From positions 1 to 31,661 of the IMG/VR virus record IMGVR_UViG_3300029448_000220: a stretch of 31,661 nucleotides of DNA. The stretch is one strand, 5' to 3'. A program made the position numbers and the translations under genes. Below, one piece after another: positions 1-18,900 of the stretch. The stretch's first letter is position 1; each line of letters opens with the position of its first letter. The DNA comes from a virus. The notes under the pieces are model-generated. The model saw only the letters and a program-made list of their open reading frames with translations, ran no database searches and was not told where the DNA came from.

Positions 1-858
1 CACAATGTTAATTAAATTTTCAGTGGTCAACCTATCATGTAGTGTATTCCAATGGTTTACATCTTTGACGAGCATAGGTATGTGTCCTGATGATGGTTTA
101 ATCTTTAAATCCTTTTGCTTAGACAGATGCACATTATGATCATCTACATCATATGTTAAAGGCAACTTTTTATCGTTGTGTGATGCATTAAATTGATCCA
201 ACAGGTTGTAATCTTGCATTGCATACATAAAATCTCTGCGGTGATATCGTGGCGTAAAATTAAGGCACAAAAATTTTTTGTAGTTAGATTTAAATTTTTG
301 ATCTAAACCAATACTAAACTTCATTAAACGCACAGCAGTTTCAAAGTAATTCCATTTTACAAAGTTAAAACAGTTACTTGTATCTGCATTTTGTGATGTT
401 TCTAACATGATTATCTTTCTCGGATCTGTAAAGCCACAATCAATAAAAAAATTGTGCAAGTCATTTTCGACTTGTGTGTCTCCTTCATATTGTTCTTTAC
501 AATTATGCACTACAAAAGCACACCTACCTTCATTCACACATTCTATTATCATTGGATCAATGTTTGTAAAATAGGATTTTAACTTTGTGTATTGTTCTGT
601 AAACAGTGCAAAAATATTTGGCTGTGGCGATATCAAATATATAAATGGCTCTTCATCTGATTCTATGTAGGCTTTTTTGATGGACTTATGCACAACTTGA
701 TATCCATTGTCTTGATAAACTTTGTCCAAAGGAGCATGATAATCTGGAATAAACATTGGTCTAGTTTTGTTGTTTTTTTGTGCTATGTCATCGTGCATGT
801 ATGGATATACATATTCATTGTGGTTAATGTTGGATTTTGCAAATACTATTTTTTTCAT
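1..858 (-). CDS. Glycosyltransferase-like protein, 3' end cut by left window edge
   Basis: Translating the minus strand from the ATG at 858 gives 286 codons without a stop to base 1, so the C-terminus lies outside the window. The protein starts MKKIVFAKSN. At about residues 195-212 it has KKFLCLNFTPRYHRRDF, an N-x-x-P-R-x-H-R pattern that I associate with exostosin-like or other phage sugar-transfer proteins. No DxD pair typical of GT8 is evident, and I see no signal peptide or membrane segment. Its ATG overlaps the stop of the methyltransferase gene as ATGA, so the two are probably translationally coupled and share the divergent promoter near 1446. The reading frame is certain. The glycosyltransferase call is tentative and rests on one motif plus its neighbours; an unrelated conserved phage protein is the alternative. 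Confidence 0.75.
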   Translation of the reverse strand, partial: MKKIVFAKSNINHNEYVYPYMHDDIAQKNNKTRPMFIPDYHAPLDKVYQDNGYQVVHKSIKKAYIESDEEPFIYLISPQPNIFALFTEQYTKLKSYFTNIDPMIIECVNEGRCAFVVHNCKEQYEGDTQVENDLHNFFIDCGFTDPRKIIMLETSQNADTSNCFNFVKWNYFETAVRLMKFSIGLDQKFKSNYKKFLCLNFTPRYHRRDFMYAMQDYNLLDQFNASHNDKKLPLTYDVDDHNVHLSKQKDLKIKPSSGHIPMLVKDVNHWNTLHDRLTTENLINIV

Positions 859-1442
859 CTGCCCACAATCATGTATCTAGTGTAAGCGTCAGTGGGTAAT
901 TCTTGTTGATCAATTATTTTTAAGTTGATGCTGTCTGCGAATTCATCTAAACTGTTCTTACAATTTACATGATCGGGCCTTGAAAAATAATTGTTGCTTT
1001 GTAAAACAACAACTGTGTTAGGTTGTTTGCGAGAAATAAACTCATTGATAGTTTTATCTGACACGTGTTCGCATGACGTAGAAACAATCACATCATATTT
1101 GTTTGGATTAAAATTTTCTATGGTGTTCCATTCAAAGTCAATTTTGTTGTTAGGATACATCTGATGTCCAATGTTACTGCATTGTTTGTCTCTATCAAAT
1201 GATGTCAATTTTGTTATTCTTGATGCATACTTTTGTCTCAATTTGTATGCAAGTAAACCATACCAACCTGCGGCAATGCACACTGTGAACTTGTCTTTGA
1301 GTCCAATGTAATCTTCTGTTTGTTCAACCAACCAATCTTTGCAAGCATGTTGCCTAGCGTTTTCTGAATTAATAATTGATTTAACAACACCATCGGTGGT
1401 AATATTTTCAATGACGTTTAGTAAATTATCAGACATAATCAT
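855..1442 (-). CDS. Class I SAM-dependent methyltransferase-like protein
   Basis: The protein has 195 residues from this ATG. After an N-terminal helical stretch, residues 52-62 (FTVCIAAGWYG) look like the first strand and glycine-containing SAM loop of a Rossmann methyltransferase. SFDRD at 81-85 fits the acidic end of strand 2, and YDVIVSTSCEHVSD at 116-129 fits strand 4 with its active-site loop. The length suits a compact single-domain enzyme; the substrate is unknown. It is first of a two-gene leftward operon and overlaps the next gene by four bases. The start is uncertain: the late-promoter-like motif at 1446-1453 ends only three bases before this ATG. By T4 spacing transcription would begin near base 1440, so the ATG at 1436 (MSDNLLNV) may be the true start. 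Its place in a glycosyltransferase cassette suggests sugar or surface modification (inference). Confidence 0.7.
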   Translation of the reverse strand: MIMSDNLLNVIENITTDGVVKSIINSENARQHACKDWLVEQTEDYIGLKDKFTVCIAAGWYGLLAYKLRQKYASRITKLTSFDRDKQCSNIGHQMYPNNKIDFEWNTIENFNPNKYDVIVSTSCEHVSDKTINEFISRKQPNTVVVLQSNNYFSRPDHVNCKNSLDEFADSINLKIIDQQELPTDAYTRYMIVGR

Positions 1443-1445
1443 GCA

Positions 1446-1453
1446 TACTTATG
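1446..1453 (-). promoter_or_regulatory. Late-promoter-like element CATAAGTA, leftward
   Basis: Read on the minus strand this is CATAAGTA followed by T, one mismatch in the TAAATA core and one in the flank against the T4 late consensus TATAAATA. It forms one arm of an 8-base inverted repeat (ATACTTAT at 1445-1452, ATAAGTAT at 1460-1467) with a 7-base spacer. It should serve the methyltransferase and the partial gene after it. Confidence 0.5.
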
Positions 1454-1458
1454 GGGTC

Positions 1459-1466
1459 TATAAGTA
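1459..1466 (+). promoter_or_regulatory. Late-promoter-like element TATAAGTA, rightward
   Basis: TATAAGTA differs from the T4 late consensus TATAAATA at one base. It ends 8 bases before the ATG at 1475, and no Shine-Dalgarno sequence lies between. With T4 spacing the predicted transcript would have a leader of about 3 bases. It is the only candidate promoter for the five-gene rightward operon up to 5644. Confidence 0.55.
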
Positions 1467-1474
1467 TCATATAA

Positions 1475-2350
1475 ATGAAAAGAGTGATATACAGTTTATA
1501 CATTGATATTCCTAGTGACCAATTAGATAATCAAAATCCATATTTTTGGGACTCTATATCTAAATCAGAACGCACAAAAATAAGTCTCAAAGAAAATTAT
1601 GATAGACTATTGTCTGTGAAACAACAATATAGTAAACAAATTGATGTCGATTTCAAAATGTTTGAATACGACCAAGCATATCAAGAATATGAACAGTATT
1701 TTGCAAAGCATTATCCAGATATGTCGTCATACAATGTAGTCAACTTTTATAAAATACATTTGCTTTATCAATTAGCACAAGAATACGATGAAATATTGTA
1801 TCTAGATTTTGATGTAGTTCCAACCAGCAAAATATCCTTTTTTGACACATGGGATCTCAGTAAAGGAATATGTTTGTTAGAAAACAACAACGATGTCAAC
1901 AAACGCAAGTTATCTATTTTTGATATTAATCATTCTGTCAGAAGTCCCACAGCAAAATTTTACAATGCACAAGCCATGTTACATGAAGAAGGCATGAGTG
2001 GTGACAATGATGTGATAAACACAGGAATAGTAGGCGTGAGCAGAGCACATCTGGAACAACTGCAATATTTCAGTGACTTTGAATATGTGTTAAACATGAT
2101 GCGTACATTACAGCAGGAAGATAATGACACAATCTATCCTCCTAATATTGTAAAAATGTTTGGTTACGACAACGAAACTGTGTGCAGTTACAAATTACGT
2201 ATGACTAATACTCCTGTGCAATGGTTAAATTCTGAGTGGCATTATTTTTATGACACTGAAATGCACATACCTACTGATACAAAATTGCTACATGCAATCA
2301 ATAAAAAATTTGATTTTGTTTGGAGATTCTATGAAAAATGTAATCTTTAG
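1475..2350 (+). CDS. GT-A fold glycosyltransferase, GT8-like (copy 1)
   Basis: The protein has 291 residues and begins MKRVIYSLYIDI, a typical first beta-strand for a GT-A sugar-nucleotide domain. The metal-binding DxD is D111-F-D113 in YLDFDVVP, preceded by YKIHLLYQLAQEYDEILYL as in GT8-type enzymes. A later N-T-G-I-V-G segment (about residue 190) fits the conserved acceptor-side asparagine region, and a WHYFYD segment lies near the C-terminus. Length is normal for the fold. No membrane segment is seen, so it probably acts in the cytoplasm. It is the first gene of the rightward operon, and its 3' end overlaps the next gene by 20 bases. The next gene is a clear paralogue (both open M-K-x-V-I-x-S-x-Y-I-D-I), so this looks like a tandem duplication. 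The sugar donor and acceptor cannot be told from sequence. Confidence 0.75.
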   Translation: MKRVIYSLYIDIPSDQLDNQNPYFWDSISKSERTKISLKENYDRLLSVKQQYSKQIDVDFKMFEYDQAYQEYEQYFAKHYPDMSSYNVVNFYKIHLLYQLAQEYDEILYLDFDVVPTSKISFFDTWDLSKGICLLENNNDVNKRKLSIFDINHSVRSPTAKFYNAQAMLHEEGMSGDNDVINTGIVGVSRAHLEQLQYFSDFEYVLNMMRTLQQEDNDTIYPPNIVKMFGYDNETVCSYKLRMTNTPVQWLNSEWHYFYDTEMHIPTDTKLLHAINKKFDFVWRFYEKCNL

Positions 2351-3254
2351 CATATACATTGATATAGAAGATGAGAGTTTAGAATCTTTGGAAGGTTATC
2401 TTGGCGACAACATGTCAAGATCACATAGGACTAAACAGCAACTGGCAAAATACAAACAAAAACTTGTTGAATGTAAACAAGAATACGCTGAATTTTGTGA
2501 AGCAGATTTTATCCTATATTCACATGATAATCAATATAAAAAATTTTTACAACACATGAACATACTTGACAACCAAGAGTTTGACAAAATTAATTTTTAT
2601 AAAATATATCTGATGGAACAACTGGCACAAAAATATGATAATGTGCTATATTTGGATCTTGATGTTGTGCCTCAAACAAAAACATCATTTTTCTCTGCAC
2701 ATGACATGGATAAATTTTGTGTTCATTGCATTCCAGCCACTAAAGAAAACACGTGGGGAGGATTTGCTAGTGGCAAAAACAAGCAGGCTAAATGTGAAGA
2801 ACATGATTGCATTTACACCTACGACCATATTGTAGAACAACATCTGGACCAGTATCATTGGTATATAAAAAAATTGTGCAAGGATGCAATGTTGATGCAT
2901 CACGGTTTGTCAGATCCTAATCACATGTTAGCTAACACCGCAATTATGGGTGGATCCAGCAATGCAATACAACAAATAAACTTTTTTGATAGATTGAATG
3001 AAATGTTAGACACATTCAATGAAGCAAAGAATGAACAAATAATGGGCGCGGCAATAACAGATAAATTTTTTATTAACAACGAAGTATTGATGACATATGC
3101 AATAATAAAATACAAATTAGACTGTTGCTATTTGCCTGCACAATGGCACTATGTTCAATTAGACATATACAATAATATGTGTAGCAAATCAGAAGCACAT
3201 TTATTGCATATTGTTGACAAACAGTTTGAAAAAATAGGAAAGTTAAATGTATAG
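2331..3254 (+). CDS. GT-A fold glycosyltransferase, GT8-like (copy 2)
   Basis: I place the start at 2331 (MKNVIFSIYIDIED), because that opening aligns with the start of the preceding paralogue and GGAG at 2322-2325 lies 5 bases upstream. An in-frame ATG at 2250 would only add residues shadowing the previous gene. The product is 307 residues. The DxD is D109-L-D111 in YLDLDVVP, after FYKIYLMEQLAQKYDNVLYL, and a later L-A-N-T-A-I-M-G segment matches N-T-G-I-V-G of copy 1. Both copies also share a W-H-Y segment near the C-terminus. Between DxD and the N-T segment it carries a longer Cys/His-rich stretch (HCIPATKENTWGG onward) than copy 1. The genes overlap by 20 bases upstream and 8 bases downstream, so translation is probably coupled. 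Substrates are unknown. Confidence 0.75.
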   Translation: MKNVIFSIYIDIEDESLESLEGYLGDNMSRSHRTKQQLAKYKQKLVECKQEYAEFCEADFILYSHDNQYKKFLQHMNILDNQEFDKINFYKIYLMEQLAQKYDNVLYLDLDVVPQTKTSFFSAHDMDKFCVHCIPATKENTWGGFASGKNKQAKCEEHDCIYTYDHIVEQHLDQYHWYIKKLCKDAMLMHHGLSDPNHMLANTAIMGGSSNAIQQINFFDRLNEMLDTFNEAKNEQIMGAAITDKFFINNEVLMTYAIIKYKLDCCYLPAQWHYVQLDIYNNMCSKSEAHLLHIVDKQFEKIGKLNV

Positions 3255-4299
3255 CACACAGAGATTACAGGTTTTTGTTGATCTTTCGACTTTATGCAAT
3301 GCTGGATGTCCACAATGTCATAGAACAAGTGTGAATGGATTGGGGAAACAAGATTGGTTACCAATGGTGCAATGGAGTTTGGAAGAATTTAAAACAGCAT
3401 TTCCTTCAAATATACTAAAAGAAAATGTTTCACAACTTAGCATTTGTGGCACCTGGGGCGATCCTGTGATGAACAAAGACATCAAGGAGATCATCACATA
3501 TGTTGTGGAAGAAAATCCAAATATTTCAATTAACCTTGACACTAATGGATCTATCAGAGACGAACAATGGTGGTGGGAACTTGGAATGTTGGCGGGCAAA
3601 AGTCTTAGAGTAATTTTTGCTGTGGATGGCATTGATCAAATAATGCACCAAAAATATAGAAGATTTACAAACCTAGAAAAAGTATTGGCCAATATGAGAG
3701 CCATAAGCGAGACCAAAACAAATGTGGAGGGACAGACCATATTATTCAAGCACAACCAAGATTATGTCAAACAAATTAAACAGTTGTGCATCGACAACGG
3801 TGCCACTGTTTATAGAGTAACACAGTCTGATAGATTCGATAATGAAGACTCTACAGAAGGCAAGTATTTTCATTTTACAAATGAGCACGGACAAAAAGAA
3901 AGTTTAGAAATAACAGACTATGAGCCACCTAATTCATTTGTGGCTCATACAAATCAAAACACTTTAGACAAAAAAATTGTTTGTCGTTGGCAAAAAGTAA
4001 ATCGTGTGCTGGTCAACATCGACGGCCAAGTGCTTCCGTGTTGTTATCTAGTCAATACATATTACAAAAATAAATTTGCAATGCACAACAAAAAATTTAG
4101 TAATCATCCTGTAATGCAAGCCTACAATGATAATGACAACAACATATTCAAAAGCTCTTTGCTAGAAATAATTCAACACAGCAAATGGTTCAACAAAACC
4201 TTGCCTAATAGCTGGAACACAGATAATCCTGTCAAACAGTGTGCAAAACAGTGTAGCACAATGACTAAAACCAAGCATCAATTGAAAGCATATCTATGA
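3247..4299 (+). CDS. Radical SAM protein with C-terminal SPASM-like cysteines
   Basis: The protein has 350 residues. C17-N-A-G-C21-P-Q-C24 is the CxxxCxxC motif that binds the SAM-cleaving [4Fe-4S] cluster. LSICGTWGDPVMNKDI (about residues 64-79) takes the place of the usual GGEP motif region, and INLDTNG follows as the next strand. The C-terminal part has C246, then C265-C266 within GQVLPCCYL, then C332 and C336, spaced like a SPASM/twitch auxiliary cluster region. SPASM radical SAM enzymes usually modify peptides or proteins, or act in cofactor or sugar chemistry; no peptide precursor gene is visible nearby. The start is supported by AGGA at 3236-3239, 7 bases before the ATG. The gene overlaps the upstream GT by 8 bases and the downstream GT by 4. 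It lies in the middle of four GT-like genes, which suggests that its product belongs to the same modification pathway. Confidence 0.85.
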   Translation: MYSTQRLQVFVDLSTLCNAGCPQCHRTSVNGLGKQDWLPMVQWSLEEFKTAFPSNILKENVSQLSICGTWGDPVMNKDIKEIITYVVEENPNISINLDTNGSIRDEQWWWELGMLAGKSLRVIFAVDGIDQIMHQKYRRFTNLEKVLANMRAISETKTNVEGQTILFKHNQDYVKQIKQLCIDNGATVYRVTQSDRFDNEDSTEGKYFHFTNEHGQKESLEITDYEPPNSFVAHTNQNTLDKKIVCRWQKVNRVLVNIDGQVLPCCYLVNTYYKNKFAMHNKKFSNHPVMQAYNDNDNNIFKSSLLEIIQHSKWFNKTLPNSWNTDNPVKQCAKQCSTMTKTKHQLKAYL

Positions 4300-5051
4300 T
4301 AAAAATTTGCACAGTATACTTTCAAGGCATGTATTCGCCACAGTATGTTACCAATCTTTATCGCAGTTTGAAAAAACATTCCACAGTTGACTTCGAATTT
4401 ATTTGTCTTAGTGATACAGATGACATTGAAGCAGATCTAATTTTGCCTTACAATCATCACACCTACATCAAGTTGCATTGGCACAAGTTAAAATACTTCA
4501 GTGAACTATTTGCAAACCAACAGCCAGGAGATGATATAATTGTAATGGACATTGACCAACTGATTGTGTCTAATATCGATAACTTGTTAAAATATCCTGT
4601 GCAGGATGGCCAATTAGTGTCATATAACAAATGGTGGGACACCAATCCTAAGCCTCCAGTAAGCATCAATGGAGGATTTTACAAGTTTAAATCTGGATCT
4701 TTAAATTGTGTATGGAACAAATTTATCGAAGATCCAGAATACTGGCAGTTACATTATTACAGTCAAAATGTTGTGCATCACAAATATTATGGTGAACAAA
4801 ACTTTGTTGAATTTGTGTGCAAAGATAACGGTGTTGACATACTGCATGTGCCAGGCGAATGGGTTGGAAAATATACTAATAATAGCACAACCAATAGAAA
4901 ATTAAACCTCATGTATGCAGAAAAATTTGAACAAGACTACATGGTGCTAGACGGGCCTAATGAAAACATAAAGATTTTGCATTTTGCTAATCCTGATTCA
5001 ACTATCCACGATTGTTCTGAAGACTGGATCAAGGAGTATTGGCTGATATGA
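4296..5051 (+). CDS. GT-A fold glycosyltransferase, GT8-like (copy 3)
   Basis: The protein has 251 residues and opens MIKICTVYFQGMYSPQYVTN, with a YVTNLYRSLKKH helix as in GT8 proteins. VDFEFICLSD follows as the second strand. The DxD is D85-I-D87 in IIVMDIDQLIV. S-I-N-G-G-F-Y (about residue 125) matches the N-x-G/S-I/F segment seen in the other copies. ILHFANPDSTIHDC near the C-terminus fits the HF/HxxG-like metal- and phosphate-binding end of these enzymes. The ATG overlaps the stop of the radical SAM gene as ATGA, and its own stop overlaps the next ATG in the same way, so it sits in a tightly coupled chain. Product and acceptor are unknown. The family call is fairly safe; the exact CAZy family is not. 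Confidence 0.75.
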   Translation: MIKICTVYFQGMYSPQYVTNLYRSLKKHSTVDFEFICLSDTDDIEADLILPYNHHTYIKLHWHKLKYFSELFANQQPGDDIIVMDIDQLIVSNIDNLLKYPVQDGQLVSYNKWWDTNPKPPVSINGGFYKFKSGSLNCVWNKFIEDPEYWQLHYYSQNVVHHKYYGEQNFVEFVCKDNGVDILHVPGEWVGKYTNNSTTNRKLNLMYAEKFEQDYMVLDGPNENIKILHFANPDSTIHDCSEDWIKEYWLI

Positions 5052-5644
5052 GAATAATATGTGTAAACACTGGAAAAAAATATAATCAATGGCACACTGA
5101 TAATCTTAAACATATGATTGATACATACTCAGGAATCGAATATGATGAGTTTGTTTGTATGGACACTGATCTTTATGATGGAGTGTTTAATAAGTTAATA
5201 ATCTTTGATCGATTCCGTGATGGTCAAAACATATTCTTTGATCTTGATGTTGTGATTTACAACAAACTGCCCGACCTCACAGCAAAAGACTTAACTTTAG
5301 TTCATTGCTGGTGGCGAGATGCTTGGCATACTCCATTGAATTCTTCTATAATGAGTTGGACCGGAGACTGTTCACATGTGTATCAAAAATTTTTACAGCA
5401 GGAAGACTACTATCTATTAAAATATAACAAAGGCATTGATGAATTTGTATACAAAGAAATAGAATATAAAACATTCGATCATGTGTGCTACACCATACAA
5501 GGAAATGAATACGCCCCTAAAGATCCAAAATACAGCATGTGTCTGTTAAACCAAAGACAGTTTTTGATGGAGCCAGGTTGGCAAGGCTGGTGGAAAAATT
5601 ATTTTATATCAGATATGGCTTTAACAACATCTAAGGGTGATTGA
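5048..5644 (+). CDS. Short GT-A-like protein with DxD (copy 4)
   Basis: The protein has 198 residues and starts MRIICVNTGKKYNQWHTDNL. I chose the ATG at 5048 because it makes an ATGA overlap with the preceding stop and has AGGAG at 5032-5036; a TTG at 5039 is only two bases from that AGGAG and is less likely. IFFDLDVVIY contains the DxD D65-L-D67, and P-L-N-S-S-I-M (about residue 100) aligns with the N-x-x-I/F segment of the other copies. It is shorter than usual for GT8, so it may be a reduced enzyme, a partner subunit or a decayed copy. Its last 46 bases overlap the oppositely oriented gene at 5599-6093. It is the last gene of the rightward operon, and no terminator hairpin was seen after it. 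Confidence 0.65.
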   Translation: MRIICVNTGKKYNQWHTDNLKHMIDTYSGIEYDEFVCMDTDLYDGVFNKLIIFDRFRDGQNIFFDLDVVIYNKLPDLTAKDLTLVHCWWRDAWHTPLNSSIMSWTGDCSHVYQKFLQQEDYYLLKYNKGIDEFVYKEIEYKTFDHVCYTIQGNEYAPKDPKYSMCLLNQRQFLMEPGWQGWWKNYFISDMALTTSKGD

Positions 5645-6093
5645 GCCTTGCGTATTGCTGCCTTTTGATTTTTGTCTTTGCAATTTTTTACAATATCCAG
5701 TTCAAAACTTGCAAGTTTGAAAGCAAATAAATCTTCTTTTTCTTGATCAACTTTAAAATTAAAAAGAAAATCCATCATTGCAGTATGAAACTTTGTTTCC
5801 GATTTGTGTGTGCTAAACACCAGGCCTTCGTCTCTTGCAATTTTGATCACACTTCTTTCAAATTGTTTTCTTTGATTTTGTATTCTTGTCCAAGTGTTTT
5901 CATGCAGTGTATCAAGATCACAAACTTTTAAAAGTTCCTGGCACCAAGGATGATTGGTGTCATATTCAATCACTGTTGATATCTGAGTGTCACTTGACGG
6001 TGATTCTAGTGTCATCACTTCAATCTGAGTCCTGTTATTGTCTATAAAATGTGCAGTAACAAATTGTTTTTCTAATATTTCAGCAGTGATCAT
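5599..6093 (-). CDS. Conserved-looking phage protein of unknown function
   Basis: The protein has 164 residues and is soluble, with no signal or membrane segment. The first half (MITAEILEKQFVTAHFIDNN, then IEVMTLESPSSDTQISTVIEYD) looks beta-rich. The second half is helical and charged (NQRKQFERSVIKIARDEGL, then HTAMMDFLFN, then DLFAFKLASFELDIVKNCKD) and ends in a basic tail. I recall similar small proteins beside tail-fibre genes in marine T4-like phages but can assign no function. It lies 11 bases after the triple-repeat gene and is probably the last gene of that leftward operon. No strong Shine-Dalgarno precedes its ATG. Its C-terminal codons overlap the 3' end of the GT copy 4 gene on the other strand by 46 bases. 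Confidence 0.7.
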   Translation of the reverse strand: MITAEILEKQFVTAHFIDNNRTQIEVMTLESPSSDTQISTVIEYDTNHPWCQELLKVCDLDTLHENTWTRIQNQRKQFERSVIKIARDEGLVFSTHKSETKFHTAMMDFLFNFKVDQEKEDLFAFKLASFELDIVKNCKDKNQKAAIRKAQSPLDVVKAISDIK

Positions 6094-6104
6094 ACAAATA
6101 TGTA

Positions 6105-7040
6105 TTAGCCTTTGCTGATACGTAGGAATGTTGTGGATTCTGTGGATGCGACACCGTCCGGAAATTCTTGTGCTCTGTAGTCATCTGCACCTACGTCACG
6201 TGTCTGATAATTGCCTGAACCATTTAATATAGTGTTTGTCATACCAGAACCTCTTGTAGTGCCTGAAGACAAACTGTAAGAAATTGCAAAACCATCAGAG
6301 GATGATGTTGCAACGTGTCTCACGTGCGATAGTAGTAATGACTCCCATGTGGCCTCTGGATACACTTGTAAATCTCCGTCTCCTCTAACAAACAGTGGTG
6401 TTTGTGAATAAGCAGTGTCTGAACCGTTTACCCTTTGTAGGAAAAAACTTGTTACTGTGGTTGGATTATCAAGAGCATGATCTCCTATTGTGCCAGCACT
6501 GTAGGCAGATGTATCTGCTCTGGTGTCAATAAACACTGCTGTGCCTGCCCCACTAACTTCTGTGGATCCTGTAACACTGGCGGCAGTTGAAATATGATAT
6601 GTGCCACCTTGTTGTGTGCCAGTTGAACCTGATACCAACAAGTCAATAGCAGGATGTATGAAAGTGTCATTAAAGTCAGTCAAAGACATTGCATATATGT
6701 CGCCACTAGATTGATACACTGGAAATGTTCTGCCTGTGTCAGCAACAATACTAGTTGATGCATTTGCACTGTTAATTTTAGCAAAGTTGGTTGTAACTTC
6801 TTGTGGCTCCTGGGTAGTTGCCTCATTTGGCGTGGCGCTGGTGCTTGTTGAAACAGCTCCTGCTTGTAATCTAGTATCAGCAATGGTGCCTAGGTTGCCG
6901 CCGGATCCTTGCACACTTAAAGCCACAGATGGATTTGTAGAATATTGATATACCACTTGATCGATAAGTTCATCAATCATCCCTGAGGTCATCTCCTGCA
7001 GGTTTCCGCTGTTGTTGTAAAGGGGTGTTCGCACAGTCAT
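6105..7040 (-). CDS. Triple-repeat tail/virion structural protein
   Basis: The protein has 311 residues and is rich in Ser, Thr, Gly and Ala, with few Lys or Cys, as in virion beta-structure proteins. It is built from three repeats of roughly 105 residues, each opening with a P-x-(Y/F)-x-x-x-G-x-(L/I) pattern: TPLYNNSGNLQEM at 5-17, TFPVYQSSGDIYAM at 105-118 and TPLFVRGDGDLQVY at 214-227. Each is followed by a short helix with I/L/F pairs (MIDELID, FNDTFIH, WESLLLS). AGGAG inside the end of the upstream fibre gene, 6 bases before the ATG, serves as its Shine-Dalgarno; the intergenic gap is 3 bases. It is thus co-translated with the S74 fibre and probably belongs to the same fibre or to its attachment point. 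The assignment as a tail component rests on composition and context. Confidence 0.7.
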   Translation of the reverse strand: MTVRTPLYNNSGNLQEMTSGMIDELIDQVVYQYSTNPSVALSVQGSGGNLGTIADTRLQAGAVSTSTSATPNEATTQEPQEVTTNFAKINSANASTSIVADTGRTFPVYQSSGDIYAMSLTDFNDTFIHPAIDLLVSGSTGTQQGGTYHISTAASVTGSTEVSGAGTAVFIDTRADTSAYSAGTIGDHALDNPTTVTSFFLQRVNGSDTAYSQTPLFVRGDGDLQVYPEATWESLLLSHVRHVATSSSDGFAISYSLSSGTTRGSGMTNTILNGSGNYQTRDVGADDYRAQEFPDGVASTESTTFLRISKG

Positions 7041-7043
7041 GTG

Positions 7044-8234
7044 CTACTCCTGTTTTGCTTTGAGCTGATCTACTTCTTGCTTGAGTGTTTTGACTGCTTC
7101 AATCAAATATGCTGTGAGTTTAGAATAATTTATACCTTCTGGATTGCCTTGCTCGTTTTTGGACACAACATTTGGAATGACAGGATAAACTTCTTCCGCA
7201 ATTAATCCTGCTTCATTTTTGTTTTTTCCATTTATTCTATCATAGGTAACACCTGTTAGTTGAATAAGTTTGTCTAGTGCATTGTTTATTGGGTTAACAT
7301 TTTCTTTGTATACAATACTTGAAGTTTCTGTAACACTTTGACATGATAAATTTCCTGGCATTGATACATCTGCAGTTCCTGTTATAGTAAGTGCAGAAGT
7401 TACAGTTGAGCCTTGATTAATTTTAAAGATGATCGGCTGATCAGCGTTGTTCTGTGTGATAATAAAATCACTGTCAGTCACTGACATGGTGGCATCGGAA
7501 GCTGCGCCAACTGTGAGTCCTGTGTTGTTAAGCACACCAAATGTGCCTGATGTTGTTTGGTTTACATCATTTTGTAAAAACACAGAAGCCGCTCTACCTC
7601 CCAATTCCAAGGCATTTTGTGCTGTGCCATGCAATCTAAATGTAGTTGAGTCTGTGTCTTCGTAAAAGGTAATTCCTTTGGCAAGTTCAGCTGATCCAAA
7701 ACCTGTTGGAGTAGCATCTAATGTTCTTGCTGTTTTTGTGAGAATAGCAACTCTTGTTCCATCTTGATACAATGATAAAACATTTGCAGTGCCGCCACCT
7801 GATAAATTTTCTACATCAACAAGCCATCCTGACTTGCCGTCGCCTGTCTTAAAGATTGGTCCAATTAAATCAAATGCCGCACCATCATACATGAACAATT
7901 GATCATTGGTTGTGTCATTCCACAGTGTGCCAGTGGTCAATCCAACTGTAGGAGTTGTTGCAGAATTTCTTACACCCACTTCAACAAAGTTACTGCCATC
8001 ATAAATCTTAAGTTCAGTATTAGTTGAGTCATACCAAAGTTCTCCTTTGATTGGAGCTGAAGGAGCAGTGCTTGAAGATGAATTTTCTAAAAGTTTAACT
8101 AGGTTTTCATTGAATGGTTCGCCATATGATTGATAGTTTCTACCAATCAGTTGTAAAGTTGTTGTGGTGTCAAGTGCACCATCCTGCACTGTTGCAACTA
8201 CTGTGCCATCTGTTTTGTTAATTGTGTATGCCAT
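7044..8234 (-). CDS. Tail fibre with C-terminal S74 intramolecular chaperone
   Basis: The protein has 396 residues. Residues 305-396 form a peptidase S74 / intramolecular chaperone of endosialidase domain: SSIVYKENVNPI (305-316) around the self-cleavage serine, TGVTYDRI, then GLIAEEVYPVIPNVV, then INYSKLTAYLIEAVKTLKQE ending in a coiled coil. In this family the domain guides trimerisation of the fibre and then cuts itself off. The N-terminal ~125 residues contain two similar GxLWYD/GTLWND-x-x-x-x-(E/Q)LxxYDG units (about 64-80 and 102-118). The middle is a Ser/Thr/Gly beta region such as DATMSVTDSDFIITQNNADQ. This points to a trimeric host-recognition fibre at the tail end. A TAAATAT motif ends just before the start codon. 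The next gene begins 4 bases after its stop, reading AGGAG from its last codons. Confidence 0.88.
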   Translation of the reverse strand: MAYTINKTDGTVVATVQDGALDTTTTLQLIGRNYQSYGEPFNENLVKLLENSSSSTAPSAPIKGELWYDSTNTELKIYDGSNFVEVGVRNSATTPTVGLTTGTLWNDTTNDQLFMYDGAAFDLIGPIFKTGDGKSGWLVDVENLSGGGTANVLSLYQDGTRVAILTKTARTLDATPTGFGSAELAKGITFYEDTDSTTFRLHGTAQNALELGGRAASVFLQNDVNQTTSGTFGVLNNTGLTVGAASDATMSVTDSDFIITQNNADQPIIFKINQGSTVTSALTITGTADVSMPGNLSCQSVTETSSIVYKENVNPINNALDKLIQLTGVTYDRINGKNKNEAGLIAEEVYPVIPNVVSKNEQGNPEGINYSKLTAYLIEAVKTLKQEVDQLKAKQE

Positions 8235-8252: not shown

Positions 8253-8906
8253 CTATACATCCACAAAGTTGGTCAAACTTTGAATCCTTATTGTGTAATC
8301 AATTTGTATCAACCTGTTCAAAGACTTCTGCACAGGATGGAATATCACATGTGTCAACAAGTTGCCAGCACCAGCTGTGCCTTCCCATGAAAACAGTGAG
8401 ATTTCATCAAAAACAAATGTGTCATTGACTGTGGTTGTGTTGTCAAATGCCTGTTGTCCTGCAGGCTCACCAAAATCTAACAAACATGACACAATACAAT
8501 CTGTGTATGTGGTAGCGTTGGTGTGTGCAATTGTGATTTTGTTTCTAGTGGTGTCTGTGTTCAATGATGATTGATCATTCACACTTTTAAAATATGTTCT
8601 GTTGTATAAATTTGCATTTGATCCTGAGGTATTTGGCGTAAGATATGTTATTATTCCAGTGTTGTCCACTGATGTGCCACCATTTCCAAAGTGCATTTCT
8701 TCTATAAATCCAGTTGATCTGTTTGCAATTGAATTGGCAAGTGCAACAGAAAAGTTTTCATAGTGTATTGCGTTTTTCTTGTCTACATACACATTACCGG
8801 ATTCAGGGTCATATATCTTAATATAACCTTGTATATCTAGTCCCTGTTGCTCATCAGGTTTAACACTGGTAGGCGCATCAGGTTTTTTATTATCTGAGGA
8901 TGTCAT
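8253..8906 (-). CDS. Fibre-associated virion protein
   Basis: The protein has 217 residues. The N-terminal 25 residues are Lys/Asp/Pro-rich and probably disordered (MTSSDNKKPDAPTSVKPDEQ). GYIKIYDPESGNVYVDKKNA and HYENFSVALANSIANRSTGF follow, then a helix-poor stretch FIEEMHFGNGGTSVDNTGII. The rest is beta-rich and ends VQKSLNRLIQIDYTIRIQ. Similar proteins occur among fibre genes of marine T4-like phages as I remember them; no enzymatic motif is seen. It begins the leftward fibre operon and has a TAAATAT motif 6 bases before its ATG with no Shine-Dalgarno. Transcription may continue into the S74 fibre gene, which has its own motif in the 18-base gap. Its role in tail or fibre assembly is inferred from context. 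Confidence 0.7.
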   Translation of the reverse strand: MTSSDNKKPDAPTSVKPDEQQGLDIQGYIKIYDPESGNVYVDKKNAIHYENFSVALANSIANRSTGFIEEMHFGNGGTSVDNTGIITYLTPNTSGSNANLYNRTYFKSVNDQSSLNTDTTRNKITIAHTNATTYTDCIVSCLLDFGEPAGQQAFDNTTTVNDTFVFDEISLFSWEGTAGAGNLLTHVIFHPVQKSLNRLIQIDYTIRIQSLTNFVDV

Positions 8907-9949: not shown

Positions 9950-12900
9950 TTAAATTAAACTTATATCTGCAGGTTTTTCTTGTAGGAATGCTATCTCAAC
10001 ACCTGTTGCCTGTTGCAGTCCTAGTCCGTTTGAAGCAGATGTCGTGCCTTGATCATACCACACCAGTCCAGTTTTTCTAATAATATCAACTTGCACTCCA
10101 ACAGATGGAGCACTGTCTAAAATGACAGCAGTAGTTGAGTCGGATCCGATGCTGAATGCTGTTGACTTAGCACCACCTATCGTTACCACAATGTCTTCTT
10201 TTGCACTAGGAAGATAAGAAAGAGCAAATGACACTGTGGTGCCATCGCCAGTAAATGTTGTGGTTGCTGTGGTGTCTTCATATGGCATTGACTGTAATCC
10301 ACTTGCATCTACGATTTTACTTTTCAATGCATGTGTCTGCACTGCTGTGCCGAATGTGCCTCTGTATAATCTTTTGAGGGTGTTGCCATCCTTTTCAAAA
10401 TATGCTATTCTTTCAGTGCCAATAAAGATCACGCCTGGTGTATTGATGTCTGTATTTGGTGTGCCAAGCACAGTTGCATCTTCTACAAGTATTTCTGTAG
10501 CATCTTTGCTTAGTTCCGCTTTTAATACAGTGGAGTGTGCAGATGAAATACGTTTGTAATGATATCTATTGATAATGTCTTTGAATACTCTGTATGCAAT
10601 AGGATTTTTTTGTATTGTGCCACTAATATATGTCACTGTGACCACATCGCTCAATCCTAAACTACGTTGAGGTAAAAACAATTGATTGCCTTCTAAAACG
10701 TAATCAATGTTTGCAGTAAGATATTGCTTATTAACTGTGACAAATACAAAACTTGAATTCAGAGGAGTTTTAGATAATTCATATTTTTTAGCATCAATGT
10801 CATCAGCTAAAATATTTCCGCTTGTGAATCCAAGATCTTGGTTGAATTGATCTCCTGTATCAAGATCACCAAAGTCTTCTGTGGTTGTCGGACTGGCAGT
10901 AATTAATCCTCTGTCCACAGTCAGTGTTGTGACATCACCAGTGGATCCGGAAAACAGTTCAGTCCTTAATGATTGTGTATCATGATTACTAAAAGTGGTT
11001 ACGAAAATAGTTTCTGCATCAATGGATGAATCATCGTTCCATCCTGACTGAAGCACTAATTTGCCATTGCCATCTAATGTGTAATCATGTCCTGACAAAT
11101 AAATCACAGCAATAACATCTCCAACTGCTGGTGTCACAGACAATACTGCGGCAGTGTTTCCTAAGGCATTTGACCCAATTGTAAAGTCTTCACCAGGAGT
11201 AAGTTTGATACCATTTTTAAAAACTTCTGTATCGGTTATGTTTGCTAGTGCGGAACTTACAGGTTCTGTAGGAATTATAAAACTTGTAGTTGATGCATCA
11301 CCTTCATAGTATGCAATTTGTGGCGGATCTAATCTATATCTGTTAGTTCCATTTGATCCAGCAACACCTTCTACAATGACTTTATGATGATATGGACCAG
11401 TCACCAATGACACAGGATCAATCTGTATTTCAAATCTTGAAGAGTCTGTTGGAATATCAGTGTATTGTGTTGTGACAACTTCACTGAAAGCTTTGGTTCC
11501 CACAGGTAAGTCAAACAGATAAACTTCAATTTTGGCCCCATCAACTGGTGCAGATGAAAACCTTATCAAAGCAGTTACAGAATCTTCATTGAGTACTTTT
11601 GTTGTGGTTGTTTTAACACCATTAACTAAAACATATGTTTGCGTAATCAAGTCAGAATTAACAGTGGTTGCAAAATCAACTGTGCTTGCGTCGCCTGTAA
11701 ATTCAAATCTGCCAAGTAAACTGTTGGTTGATACTTCAATCACACTTATTTCAATGATATCATTATTGCTTGGTGCAGTTGTGAATGTAATTTTATTGGT
11801 TGCAAAATTAACTGTGTAATCTGTGCCCTGTATTTTGAATATGTTGTTAACATACACCCTAAGACCATCTGTGTTGGTAAGTTCTGGTGTTGTGAACACA
11901 ACAGTTGATCCATCTCCTGAATATCTTTTTTTGAAAATGTTTGATGCACTGTCAGTTTGCCTTGTGTATACTTTAAGATCAAGTGTGTCATACACACCAC
12001 CTGGTAAAACTTCTTCAGGACCATGAGCAGAATATTCAGAAATAAAATCATCACCTACCACATTTATATCTTCTGCACGTGTGCCCAAACTTGTTGTGAA
12101 GGATTTGGAATCCAACACTTGATCAAGATTGACTGGATCTGTAGCCTCTGCCAAACTTACGTTGGTATCATATTCTGTGTTGTCGTATCCAATGATGTCA
12201 TACCCTGATGACTCAGAAAATGTCAGTGCCTGCACTCTTACTCCAGGATATTCAATTCCTGTCATTAATTGTGCATACGCATTATTAGTGGTTGATCCAT
12301 CTCCTATCAAACCAGCCATGCCAGCTGAAGGATCATAGTATGCATGGATTCTATCAGTTGCAGACCATTCTACTAGCGGATGCTGTGATGTTGCACTTGA
12401 TGAATCAGGCAATAACACATTATCCCCAAATTTATCTCCACTTGTGAACGGCTCATGCACACGATAAATTTTATCCAAGTATCTAACATTTTGTCCTGCT
12501 GTGTAAGATGTATATTTGCTCCATTCTACTATTGTATTAGACTGTGTTTCACGTAATGAATTCAGTCTATCAAATTTAATAGTAGTATCCACTGATCTAA
12601 CTTTGTTATTAACAAGTTCTGCATGTGCAAGAGCAGTGGTTTGGATTGATGCCCCTCCGCCGCCTGTAATAGATACTGTAGGAATACTCACATAGCCTGT
12701 GCCAGCGTTAGTGACTTTTATCTCAGTTATTTTGCCATTTCCTATTGTTGCAACAGCTTTAGCTCCTGTGCCGCCACCGCCTGTGATAGTGACTGTTGGA
12801 ACTTCTGTGTAACCGTCTCCTTGTCTATCAACCACAATGGATCCCACAGTAAGTTTAAAGTTGTTGGCATACTCTTTCCATGGATATGTGTCATAAATGC

Positions 12901-15900
12901 TTGGCAGATCAGTCTGCGATGGATTTATATTAGGAGTTTCATAGGTTGCTGTGTCTTTGTTGTAATATGTTCTGTTATCAAAGTCAGTGAAATCACCAGC
13001 GACTGTGTCTTTATTGAGATATGAAGTTACATCTTCACGCACAGTAGTTTTGAAAGGTAAAACTTCTCTAAAGAAATCATTCACTGCATCAGCAGTGTCT
13101 ATTTGGAATTCACGTAACTGTTGTAAGTTTGAGTATGTGTTGATTGCTTTAACAAAAGATGTTTTAAATGCCCAATCTAGATTTTTATTTTGTAGTTGTG
13201 CAATTCTCACTCCAATAAAGAATAGTTTGTTGTATAAAATTGCATCTTCATCAATTGCAAAATTTTTGACAGCATCTAAAATATTTCTAAGTTCTGTCAC
13301 TGCTTCTGCATCATACAAATCAGCTCCGTATGCATCTGCTCCAAATCCAATTTGGTTTGCAGAGTAATCAAATAATGAAGTGGACAATTCAAGTGTTCCA
13401 TTTTCTATTCCGACAGTTTCAAAACTACTAGATGTTTTCAAGTATAATCTAAATTCGCCACCATATGATTGTTTAACTTTGACAATGTCACCTTTTGAAT
13501 AGTTGCCGTTTAATCTTGTTCTTTCGTCTGTTACCAAATGATCAGCAACAGTGTTAATGCTGTATCCTTCAGCATACCAATCAGCAAACGACCAATATTT
13601 TTTAGTGTCATATGTTTGCTGTAAAGTCCTGTCCCATATGTCGCCTGTCCATTGATACACTGCCCAACCATTATCGACATTGGTATCTGCAATTACTAAA
13701 ATTTTATAACCAATTGATATTTCATTTGTGTTTACATATGTTAAATCTGTATCAGTGTCTACTTCTTTGTCATATTCACCTAGTTTTAAACTTGGCAGTG
13801 GATCTATTTTGTTGAATAATGATAAGTCCTTTGTTGTTGCGTATGCTTGTGTTTTCAATTGATCATTTACAAATTGCACAATAATTTTAAGTGCTCCTAT
13901 TCTATCAGGATACCAACTCTGTCTTGGTCTATTGAGTGTGCCATATCTCAGTGATGGAGGCTGGTTGACGTCAGGCACTGTTCTACCAAATTTGTCAAAA
14001 CCAATCAAACTATCAAAAAATTTGTCTGTAAGAGATTGCGGAATTGCACTGTTGGCATCATCTTTGGCAATCAACACATGTTCTGTGTGTTTGTGTATTG
14101 GTTCACTGTCAGTGGTGTTTTCAAACTGCAATGCAATAGAATTTTGGGCCAGTTGGTTTCTGTTCAAGTTTAATATGATAGAATCTTTACTTACAAAACC
14201 TGCAAAATTATTTGAAAACAGTGTTGGATTTGTAAGCGAGTTTGCTATTTCTAAAGCAGACAGTGTGTTGTTATTGCCAAGACTGGTGCTGTTGGAGACC
14301 CAATAAAAATATTTGTTTACAAATCTTGATTTGTTTTCATCATACACTCTTTTAGTAACAAAAGTATTGTTGGCAGTGCCAGTGATGTTTTGACTTTGTC
14401 CTTCATTTGTATTGGACACTGCATTGTATTGTGTTGGAGTTAGACTACTACTGATCCATTCTTTGACTTGCACATCGGATGATGGATGCAACTTGGCCCA
14501 ATTGTTTAGTTTGTCGTCATCTGAACCTTGTTCATACCAAAAGTATTTGAATGTGCTGATATCAAGCCAAATTTCACCAAGATGATCTTCATCCCAAGAA
14601 TCATATTCTGCAGGATCAAATGCAATTTCAAAATTTATGTTTTTCCTAACTTCAGCAAACAATTTTCCTTTGATCGGATCAATGATAGGCATTTGATTCA
14701 CTATTCTGTTAGTGGATGTGTCATATAGGAATGCTTTTTCAATCTTGTTTACGTCAACTAGGCTAGGTTGAGTTGCAATTGTTTCCCAACCCAAAGAATC
14801 TGTTATTTTTTTGAATATAAAAAATCTTCCACTGCCAGATAATGAGCCATCTAGACCTGATGCTCCGATATATGCATTCAATTTAGAAAATGCAATAGCA
14901 GATCCATAATCTGCTCCTGAAGGCAATGTTTGACTTGGCCTAATATTTTGCACTGCAATAAATTTGAGATTTATTTTGTTAAACACATGCACCTGTCCAC
15001 TGTCATTTTGCACATCAACAAAACTTGTTGTGCCTGCATCAAATGTGGTTTCACTTAAAACTGTGGACCCGTCTGTTGCAAGTCGATCAAATGTTGTGCT
15101 TAGTTTGGCATCTCCAAATATGCTTTGCGCCATCATGTTGTTGTCTTTGACTGTGACATTTTTTCCAAACTGTTGATTGACATGAGATGATCTCACAGTG
15201 ATTGTGTCAGTCAATGTGTATTGTGTGATTACCACTGTCGATCCACTGGCTGGAGCACTTGATAGAGTCACTGAGTTTGTTGAGCCATCTACTCTGTAAA
15301 AATTTGTTGTGGAACTGTCGTTGCCATCATTGTGTGCATAATTGTCATTGCCCACAAACACACCAATAAATTCGTTGTGATCTACAGTGAACCCAACATC
15401 AAACTGTGTTGTGCTTCCGTCACCTATGGCTGTAAATGTATTCTTAGTGAAATGAAACACACCACCTTGTTTACGCACAGCGCCAGAATACAACGGAGCA
15501 CCAACAAGCACATCTGTGCCATCAGATGATATTGCTAATGAAGTGCCGAACTGTATGTCATCGATCAAGTTAGCAGTCAACGATTCATGTTCATAAAACA
15601 CATCATTTTTCAATCTAAACACATACACCCTGCCGCCGTCGTTGGTTGTGGAATCGTTGTCTTGTTTAGGTGATGATATGATAATTGTTTTGCCATCATT
15701 GGAAATCTCAACCTGCTCTCCGAACCTTGAGCCAAGTTGGCTGTTTGCTGTAGGCACCAGTGTTTGGTGTAGATCATATCTTGTTGAGGATCCATCTTTT
15801 GCATACTTGTAGACGTAGACAGTGCCCCTATCAGCTGCTGTAGAATCATCAGGCCCGCCCGGTGCACCTATCACAAGATATGTGCCATCGCCGCTGACTG

Positions 15901-18900
15901 CAACTGCACTGCCAAATTCGCCTCCTTTGTCTACATTAGGTGCCACAATAGTTTGAGTAATGCCATAACTTGATCTAGCATCTCTGTTGATCCAATGCAC
16001 AGCACCCTGTGATGTTGCATCACTGCCTTCAACTTTCGTCACACTTATTGTGGACGATGAATCGCCAACATCTAAAGGCTCTGATTGGAAATTGGTGGCC
16101 GCAGTGTTCTTTACCCAGATTATGTCATTATCCCAATCCACATCTAAAATTTTACCTGTAGCACCAGACTCTGATCCAATCACTGTTGTGCCTCTAGTGT
16201 ATGCTCTAAATGTGGCACTTAGAGTTAATTTCACAATGTCGGCAGTTTGTGGTGATCCTGCAAATACTCTTCCACCGTCAGATACCATTGCAATGCTATG
16301 ACCAAATCTATCATCAGCGTCAGAGTTGCCTATGTCTAGTAGAATTGAATTTCTCAGATAAAAACTATCTGCTGTGCTGTTTCTAATATACACAAATGTT
16401 TTGTTGACACCAGGTGCAGTGGATGCCAAATATAGATTGCTATCATCAACAGCAATTGCGGATCCCATTTCGCCGCTGGCTTGTTCTTCTTCTATCAATG
16501 TTTCATCTGATATGCTATATTCTGTTGACTGTGATTTTTGATACACTTTCCAAAGTCCGTTGTCAGGATACTGTTTTTTATAATCATTATCAACATACAC
16601 ATAATCGCCTATGGCAAAATCTTTGGTTGGTAAAATTGTGTTGATATCATCCATCTTGTTGATTCTGACACTACCAAACTTTCCTATTGTGCCCTGTAAA
16701 TTTGTGCTGTCGACAGTGCCACTGAAAGCCACTGTGAAGCTTCTATCATCATCTGTGCTGTCTGCTGTCAAAACTTGATACACACCATCAATGGAATCGT
16801 TTACATCAAAAATTGCAACATAATCATTTTCATTTAGGCCATGTGGTTCTTTAGTTGTAATTTGTAATACATCATCAAATTGTTTGTATGCTTCAGTGCT
16901 TGTGTTTACACTATTGAATCTCTTAACGTCCCAATCACCAGTGGGTGTATTTGCTACCCACACTGTTTGACCTTCCTTAAGCTGTGTTGCATCTAAATTT
17001 AACAATTCGGATTCATCAAACACAGTGTAGTTCACTTGATTAGGTAAAACATAGCCTGCTGATGGCAGTTGGAAAATACTGTCTATGGTATTTTGATGTT
17101 GATTGTAATCAATGGTTTGATTGATTGATCCATCAAAAGCATATGGCTTGAGAAGCAATTCATCACTTTGTTGATTGATATTGATCACAGTTTCTGTATC
17201 ATCTAAATTGTCTTCGCTTACTTTGTAAACCAGTCTATCTCTAAGATGTTTACTTTCTGGCACTACAAATGCAAATGCTTGTTGTGTTCTGTGTCCACCA
17301 TATTCGCCCACCCTAAAAGCATATTCTTCAAATAAATCATAAGACACATCCTGATCTGACTGTGGCTGTGATTTAAATTTGTTGATTGGACCTATAGTCC
17401 CTTTTTCTTTCAACATACCTTGATAAAATTTAAATTGTGTAAGTTCTTCTAGTCCTAAATTATTCATATATTGTCTTGGTTGATAAGCAATAAGATGCTG
17501 TGCATATCTTTGTTGCTCTGAGTCAAAATTATCTGAATCTAAAGAATAAAAATCTCTAAATGCCTCTGCCTTGGCATCCCAGTTAGGCAACATTTGTTTT
17601 TCTGGTGCTTCTTCTTTATATTGATAAAACTTTCTCTCAAAGGTTTCGCCGCTGGTGTGGTTGATTGTCACTGCATAATACTTGCCTTGATGCACAACAT
17701 TTTCTCCAATTCTATAATCTGTAAATGGAGTCCAATCTAATATTTTTGCCTGATCCAACACATATCCTGGAGCATATAAGTCTCCGTTCCAATTAGCAGT
17801 CCTAAATCCAACAAGTTTAATTCTATCCTGTCTATTTCCTGTGATGTCGTCGAATATAACATCGCTGAACTGTGAAATATTATCAAACACAACAAGATGT
17901 TCTTTTTGCACTGCACGAATGTCTGCATTGTATATGCCATCTTCTGTAGGATTTGTAACAAGCCTAAACACACCATCCTGTCTATTTGTGGTGAAATTGT
18001 TTGGATTGATTGGCAGGCCATCTTGTTGTAACACAGAATAAAACTGATCTGTGTCTGTGAGATCATCACCAATGGTGTTTTCTTTTTGGAATGTTAAACT
18101 TTGAGCAGAAGGTGACAGTGTAATCACTGAATCTGTGTTCCATCCTTGCGTGGTCCAGAACAAAAATTCTTTCACACTTAGGTCCCAATTAGCTGGCTGT
18201 TGAAGTTCGTTGACAAAGTCATCGAATACAAATCCTTCTATTTCAAGGTGTTGTGCATAGCCAAACAAAAAGTCCGCAGTATCTTGTGCTGTGTTAAACT
18301 GTTGTCCATATGGAACTGTGGTTATCGTTGGTTCGTAGTTTTTGTATTTTTTTACAGACACTCCGCCTTTTAATGGAAGTGTAGCTCCTATTTCGGACCA
18401 ATTAGTTGCATCAAAATTTTGTCCACTTGTGATAGTGTTTAATGATCGATAAAACACACTTTCGTTTCTCACAATGACTCCTTTGTTGTAAAATCCACCT
18501 GCTTGCCATTCTGTAAATGACTCTGTGGTTGCACCTATGCGTATTGTGGAAGAATTTGAAAACTGTTTTGGTTTGTAATATTTGAATGTCCTATCAAAAT
18601 TAGAATAACCAGATACTTTGAATCCAGTGCCAGTTTTTTGCACTATCACTCCACTGTAGTGTGCTGTGACCACTGGAGCACTTTTATAAATTAGTATGTT
18701 AAAATTTTCTCGTGGTAAAAACACGCCTTGTGATGTGCTTTGTGGTGACACACTGCCCACAGCCACTTGCAAATTATCTTTGTTTGTAAAGCCACCTAAT
18801 TTATAAGATAACTGCACAGCAATGTTATTGAATTTATCTGAAATATAAGTGTTGGCTGTGTATCCTAAATGCTTAATGTAATCGGAAATTGCATTTATGT

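Follow-up and report, generated by a model that had tools for sequence, protein, structure and literature searches.

A glycosyltransferase and radical SAM enzyme cassette that travels with a putative fibre-tip protein in marine phages

Introduction

Pelagimyophages carry a host recognition cluster for which the published reading is a change in the O-chain of the host (Zaragoza-Solas et al. 2020, PMC7029224). An interchangeable radical SAM cluster is found in the Campylobacter phages CP220 and CPt10, for which a metabolic benefit was proposed by the authors (Timms et al. 2010, PMC2853527), and glycosylation of the virion is attributed to mycobacteriophages (Freeman et al. 2023, as cited in PMC12619734). 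In open-access full text we found no paper on tail-fibre modules combining radical SAM enzymes with glycosyltransferases or carbamoyltransferases, or on a glycosylated tail, and an earlier description elsewhere is possible.

The DNA analysed here (the window) is the full 31,661 bases of an IMG/VR record, which is probably a genome fragment of a marine giant phage. Positions 1–5644 hold a cassette of four GT-A glycosyltransferases, a radical SAM/SPASM enzyme, a probable methyltransferase and one unassigned protein, g1.

Results

Gene layout and phage lineage

The seven open reading frames at positions 1–5644 are tightly packed in two divergent groups, as in the original prediction, and the coordinates agree with its range of 4–20-base overlaps: 4 bases between g1 and g2, 20 between g3 and g4 (ATG at 2331) and 8, 4 and 4 in the next pairs. 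The features of the cassette and the adjoining fibre region are as follows.

1–858, minus strand: g1, 286 aa, cut by the contig end; open reading frame list, no family or relative
855–1442, minus strand: g2, probable class I SAM methyltransferase (family MT); Mosig_00090 relative, family profile
1443–1474, no strand: divergent promoter gap with the late-type motif TATAAGTA at 1459–1466 (plus strand); motif search
1475–2350, plus strand: g3, GT-A/GT8-like glycosyltransferase (family A), DFD motif; weak Pfam GT8 match, Mosig_00091
2331–3254, plus strand: g4, GT8 glycosyltransferase (family B), paralogue of g3, DLD motif; Pfam Glyco_transf_8
3247–4299, plus strand: g5, radical SAM protein with a SPASM-like C-terminus; Pfam, PHROG 21308, PDB profile, NCBIfam
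4296–5051, plus strand: g6, GT-A glycosyltransferase (family C), DID motif; PHROG 1962, Mosig_00092
5048–5644, plus strand: g7, short GT-A glycosyltransferase (family D), DLD motif; Mosig_00094, jackhmmer, predicted fold
5599–6093, minus strand: g8, small partner protein, 164 aa; Mosig_00095, co-occurrence, structure model
6105–7040, minus strand: g9, putative type II fibre-tip protein and candidate acceptor; Mosig_00097, families, swaps, composition
7044–8234, minus strand: g10, fibre protein with an S74 endosialidase-type chaperone; Pfam Peptidase_S74, Phosso and Atu_ph07 homologues
8253–8906, minus strand: g11, structural protein and lineage marker (Atu_ph07/Phosso jumbo type); 55% and 53% identity
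8938–9936, plus strand: g12, Ser/Thr-rich tail protein on the opposite strand within the structural operon; short Mosig match

The gp6-like baseplate protein of the window and g11 (55% identity to Phosso and 53% to Atu_ph07) are closest to those of jumbo phages such as these two. By sequence comparison, the baseplate and structural genes are of the Atu_ph07/Phosso jumbo type, and g9, g8 and the enzymes match those of the pelagimyophage Mosig. At the same site after the S74 fibre gene, the cassettes of Phosso and Atu_ph07 are different ones, in which several radical SAM genes occur, and the insertion point of the module in the window likewise follows g10, the fixed S74 fibre gene. Elsewhere in the structural region, g12 is found in the closest relatives (contigs L258 and L260) and is missing from most of the lineage. 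A 4271-aa open reading frame (9950–22765, minus strand) corresponds in position to giant structural proteins in the virions of Phosso, Atu_ph07 and PA5oct, the last of which has mass-spectrometry support according to the PA5oct annotation.

Enzymes of the cassette

The four DxD proteins predicted to be glycosyltransferases (g3, g4, g6 and g7) are GT-A glycosyltransferases, with g3 and g6 assigned by homology. The g4 protein scores 27.2 bits against Pfam GT8, above the cut-off of 24.3, while g3 has a weak match to the same family and is a paralogue of g4 (30% identity). The g6 protein matches the glycosyltransferase PHROG 1962 (3e-16), and g7, grouped with family C by jackhmmer, has a predicted GT-A fold (pLDDT 92) with Foldseek matches to GT6/GT8 enzymes at 7e-6; the best two-way TM score of this model among the matches listed (0.61/0.60) is to the capsid glycosyltransferase of PBCV-1. 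The Asp pairs of the DxD motifs are invariant in the glycosyltransferase alignments, including D111 and D113 across 27 relatives of g3. A PDB profile search gave weak GT8/glycogenin matches for g6 and g7 and no match for g3 or g4. A fifth glycosyltransferase-like protein had also been proposed, with g1 as 'exostosin-like', and this is unsupported: neither Pfam nor NCBIfam gave an Exostosin domain, and g1, which is cut by the contig end, had no match in Pfam, PHROGs, NCBIfam, INPHARED or IMG/VR.

The g5 protein contains the CxxxCxxC core (CNAGCPQC, residues 17–24) and passes the Pfam cut-off for Radical_SAM, which secures the radical SAM part of its assignment. The SPASM part falls slightly short, with 20.8 bits against a Pfam cut-off of 21.5. 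This protein also matched PHROG 21308, NCBIfam and, by PDB profile, MoaA and others, and a single-sequence scan of IMG/VR with g5 gave no relative. The proposed SAM methyltransferase, g2, is below the Pfam cut-off as a single sequence and takes on this appearance only through the profile of its family (148 open reading frames in related loci), which matches the PDB 3dtn methyltransferase at 3e-6. Judged from this profile, g2 is probably a class I SAM methyltransferase.

The gap between the divergent groups is 32 bp long (1443–1474) and contains the window's sole copy of TATAARTA, a motif with 2.9 copies expected by chance in the whole window. A T4-late-type motif is present in five of seven homologous divergent gaps compared with 0.39 expected from shuffles, which supports the late-type promoters of the original prediction. 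This suggests that the cassette is expressed late in infection.

Recurrence in marine phages

Relatives of g2, g3, g6, g7, g8, g9 and g12 are present in matching order in Mosig, a Pelagibacter phage of the Kyanoviridae, with identities of 24, 49, 56, 53, 35, 58 and 43%, respectively, the last over a short match. The first six are Mosig_00090, 00091, 00092, 00094, 00095 and 00097. IMG/VR was scanned with g7, g3 and g9 alignments, giving a set of 102 dereplicated loci that includes the window and Mosig. The order of a methyltransferase on one strand, two glycosyltransferases, a radical SAM enzyme and two glycosyltransferases on the other, and g8 and g9 again on the first was found in other marine viral contigs. 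The gene order thus recurs in other phages, and the claim that this exact set was undescribed does not hold, since pelagimyophages carry close relatives. Within the 102 loci, g8 lies on the opposite strand directly after a g7-type glycosyltransferase in 53 of 87 cases, and the g3 plus g4 arrangement of the window is seen, with variations, in L010, L011, L082, L083, L089, L106, L142 and L161.

Many related loci hold several radical SAM genes, and the pelagimyophage loci among them include carbamoyltransferase, DegT-like aminotransferase, NAD epimerase and PP-loop enzymes. The cluster that we had labelled 'CarbT' was rejected as a single family, as it joins true carbamoyltransferases to a second radical SAM family through a few fusions; the extra gene of window-like loci in this cluster encodes a radical SAM protein. 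Six proteins of more than 900 aa in cluster c0 have both radical SAM and carbamoyltransferase-type motifs and are apparently fusions.

A search of 84,980 bacterial and archaeal genomes for the g3/g4 family, made with one conserved pattern, returned only four contigs (L339, L340, L341 and L342). These are filed as bacterial metagenome-assembled genomes (MAGs; Flavobacteriaceae, Gammaproteobacteria and Rhodobiaceae) and carry the module; since all four have g8 and g9, they are pieces of phage mis-binned into MAGs. The possibility that the cassette is a fragment of a host LPS locus, set against a phage cassette in the original prediction, is rejected on this result.

Association with putative fibre-tip type

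Two samples, seeded with VrlC and with g11, were drawn blind to the enzymes, and the proposed tracking of the cassette with fibre type was borne out in both. Among VrlC-seeded contigs offering 6 kb or more of space, cassette-family glycosyltransferases are present in 24 of the 26 with g8, the two exceptions running off the contig, and in none of the 10 without g8; the contigs negative for glycosyltransferases resemble a single cyanophage-like group, which makes this count non-independent. Five glycosyltransferase-bearing contigs have g8 and no recognisable g9, which shows that the partner is not g9 in every case. The idea that g9 is the sole determinant is weakened, as g8 follows the glycosyltransferases more closely in this sample.

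The g11-seeded sample represents the window's own jumbo lineage and comprises 62 dereplicated contigs. L262, L274 and L277 have g10 followed by g9, g8 and C/D glycosyltransferases, and L260 and L276 stop at g9. Of 34 copies of the other tip (~300 aa), 33 are followed by a small protein and DxD proteins particular to it, and no mixed sets of tip and enzymes occur among the 62 contigs (Fisher 0.0016 for tip type against enzyme set, with only two type II contigs long enough to be counted). One contig with 94% identity to the window in g11, L258, has the alternative tip and the beginning of the set that goes with it. Some jumbo contigs have extra g10-type fibres ahead of the tip. The second, unrelated tip module, seen at L271:12426–16962 and in ~33 further jumbo contigs, has a fixed order of tip, small protein, two related DxD proteins, a third and radical SAM genes.

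In a tree of g9, the jumbo rows fall into two groups that were joined in 0 of 200 bootstrap trees, so the tip entered the jumbo lineage at least twice. On the phylogeny and gene content, g9 arrived each time with g8 and glycosyltransferases.

We infer that g9 is a fibre tip. Its Ser plus Thr content is 27%, with tips of both types at 27–30% and g11 and g10 at 18–22%. The g8 model (pLDDT 94) consists of three strands and a long helix, and a fold search of PDB and viral structure libraries at E 0.001 gave no match; g8 (alignment A14) may have a new fold. Rows from Mosig were left out of the alignments used for structure models.

Discussion

We propose, with a probability of about one half, that the fibre tip, or its partner, is the target of the cassette enzymes, which would modify it in the cytoplasm at a late stage of infection. 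The swappable fibre-tip module would consist of the tip g9, the small partner g8 and then the enzymes. At that stage a glycan on g9, or on the fibre that g9 caps, would be built or altered in the cytoplasm by g2 and g5 acting with the four soluble glycosyltransferases, while g8 may present or chaperone the tip. The decorated tip would then join the virion and affect host binding or shielding. The choice of g9 as acceptor, the sequence of reactions, what g8 does and any effect on binding are all inferred here. By hydropathy, transmembrane segments are lacking in all cassette families, and multi-transmembrane genes are nearly absent from the loci. The soluble enzymes, the phage-only g3/g4 family, the Ser/Thr-rich tips and the late motif together favour a virion acceptor. 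Other findings count against this model. PA5oct virions contain a distant relative of the other tip, with counterparts of g10 and g11 (mass spectrometry, according to the annotation), and no such enzymes lie beside this homologue in PA5oct; in addition, the fibre c1, a neighbour of g9, has a Ser plus Thr content as high as that of g9 (27%).

The alternative that survives best, and which we consider somewhat unlikely, is that a host surface glycan (LPS or O-chain) is altered late, so that progeny avoid debris and rival phages are shut out. Fibre and enzymes would then travel together because both match one receptor, and this reading stays in consideration since linkage to a fibre is also expected if the enzymes alter the receptor of that fibre. 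It is the published reading for pelagimyophages (PMC7029224), whose module has sugar-nucleotide enzymes typical of O-antigen clusters, and it fits the frequency of GT8 enzymes in LPS synthesis as well as the carbamoyltransferase, aminotransferase, epimerase and PP-loop enzymes of their loci. However, the window module has glycosyltransferases and no sugar-nucleotide enzyme, and a membrane glycosyltransferase, flippase, polymerase and ligase are absent among the cassette families. The restriction of the g3/g4 family to phages in the genome search and the late-type promoter motif also argue against a host glycan, as does g8, which tracks with the glycosyltransferases yet resembles no envelope protein.

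SPASM radical SAM enzymes frequently have peptide substrates, and a modified peptide or small product could therefore be made, or the radical SAM enzyme could cross-link or epimerise the tip, with the glycosyltransferases acting only on that product. Several radical SAM genes in related loci, CP220 and Phosso/Atu_ph07 are in keeping with such chemistry, but four glycosyltransferases would be unusual and no conserved short precursor peptide was recognised, short of a systematic search, so that we regard this as improbable. Least probable is DNA hypermodification, in which the enzymes would glycosylate modified phage bases: this is a common role of phage glycosyltransferases, with literature on DNA-glycosylating viral enzymes among that cited in PMC12619734, but it is unlikely for a cassette that swaps with fibre genes, has a late-type promoter motif and, by family search, contains no recognised base-modifying enzyme of the hydroxymethylase or TET type, in a record that covers a 31.7-kb fragment of the genome.

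Should the tip prove to be the acceptor, host recognition in abundant marine phages would involve protein glycosylation and radical SAM chemistry, which would help to explain the large enzyme islands beside fibres and bear on the prediction of host range from fibre sequence alone. More tentatively, jumbo and T4-like marine phages may share exchangeable adhesin-maturation modules, each tip having its own partner, glycosyltransferases and radical SAM enzymes, with host range set by the tip sequence and the modification that travels with it. The fixed pairing of tip type and enzyme set is a checkable rule even if a host glycan is the target, and direct testing is possible in a cultured carrier, Mosig on Pelagibacter HTCC1062.

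Comparison with known systems

The cassette proteins lack transmembrane segments, unlike a serotype-converting gtr cassette with its GtrA flippase and membrane-bound GtrB. The capsid glycosyltransferase of PBCV-1 (PDB 2p72) shares the small GT-A fold of g7 (TM 0.61/0.60), but it belongs to a virus of eukaryotes, has 12% identity to g7, and the shared fold says nothing of the acceptor. Mycobacteriophages, as described through the citation in PMC12619734, likewise encode glycosyltransferases that modify virion proteins. In that system, where glycans were observed, the modified structures are the capsid and tail tube; for the window such modification is predicted, and the cassette has a radical SAM enzyme and linkage to a fibre. 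In CP220 and CPt10, too, an exchangeable block lies upstream of a tail fibre gene, and it encodes two NDP-sugar transferases alongside several radical SAM proteins. Unlike the window, their glycosyltransferases have no detectable similarity to those described here, an amidinotransferase is present and g8 and g9 are absent. The CP220 block corresponds to L175:11194–19813, in which three radical SAM proteins are matched by the g5-family profile.

The pelagimyophage cluster (Mosig EXVC030M 00090–00098) is like the window in its glycosyltransferase families, homologues of g2, g8 and g9, gene order and position beside fibres, and in having GT8 enzymes and radical SAM cassettes. Mosig has no counterpart of g4 and adds a nitroreductase, carbamoyltransferase, aminotransferase and epimerase, and the window phage differs from it in its jumbo-type baseplate genes. 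The pelagimyophage cluster is defined by its location between VrlC and gp14 in T4-like phages; in the window gp6 and g11 are of jumbo type and no VrlC family match adjoins the module, although its content otherwise matches. The block of enzymes is thus already known in pelagimyophages, and what is new here is the putative fibre-tip module to which it belongs.
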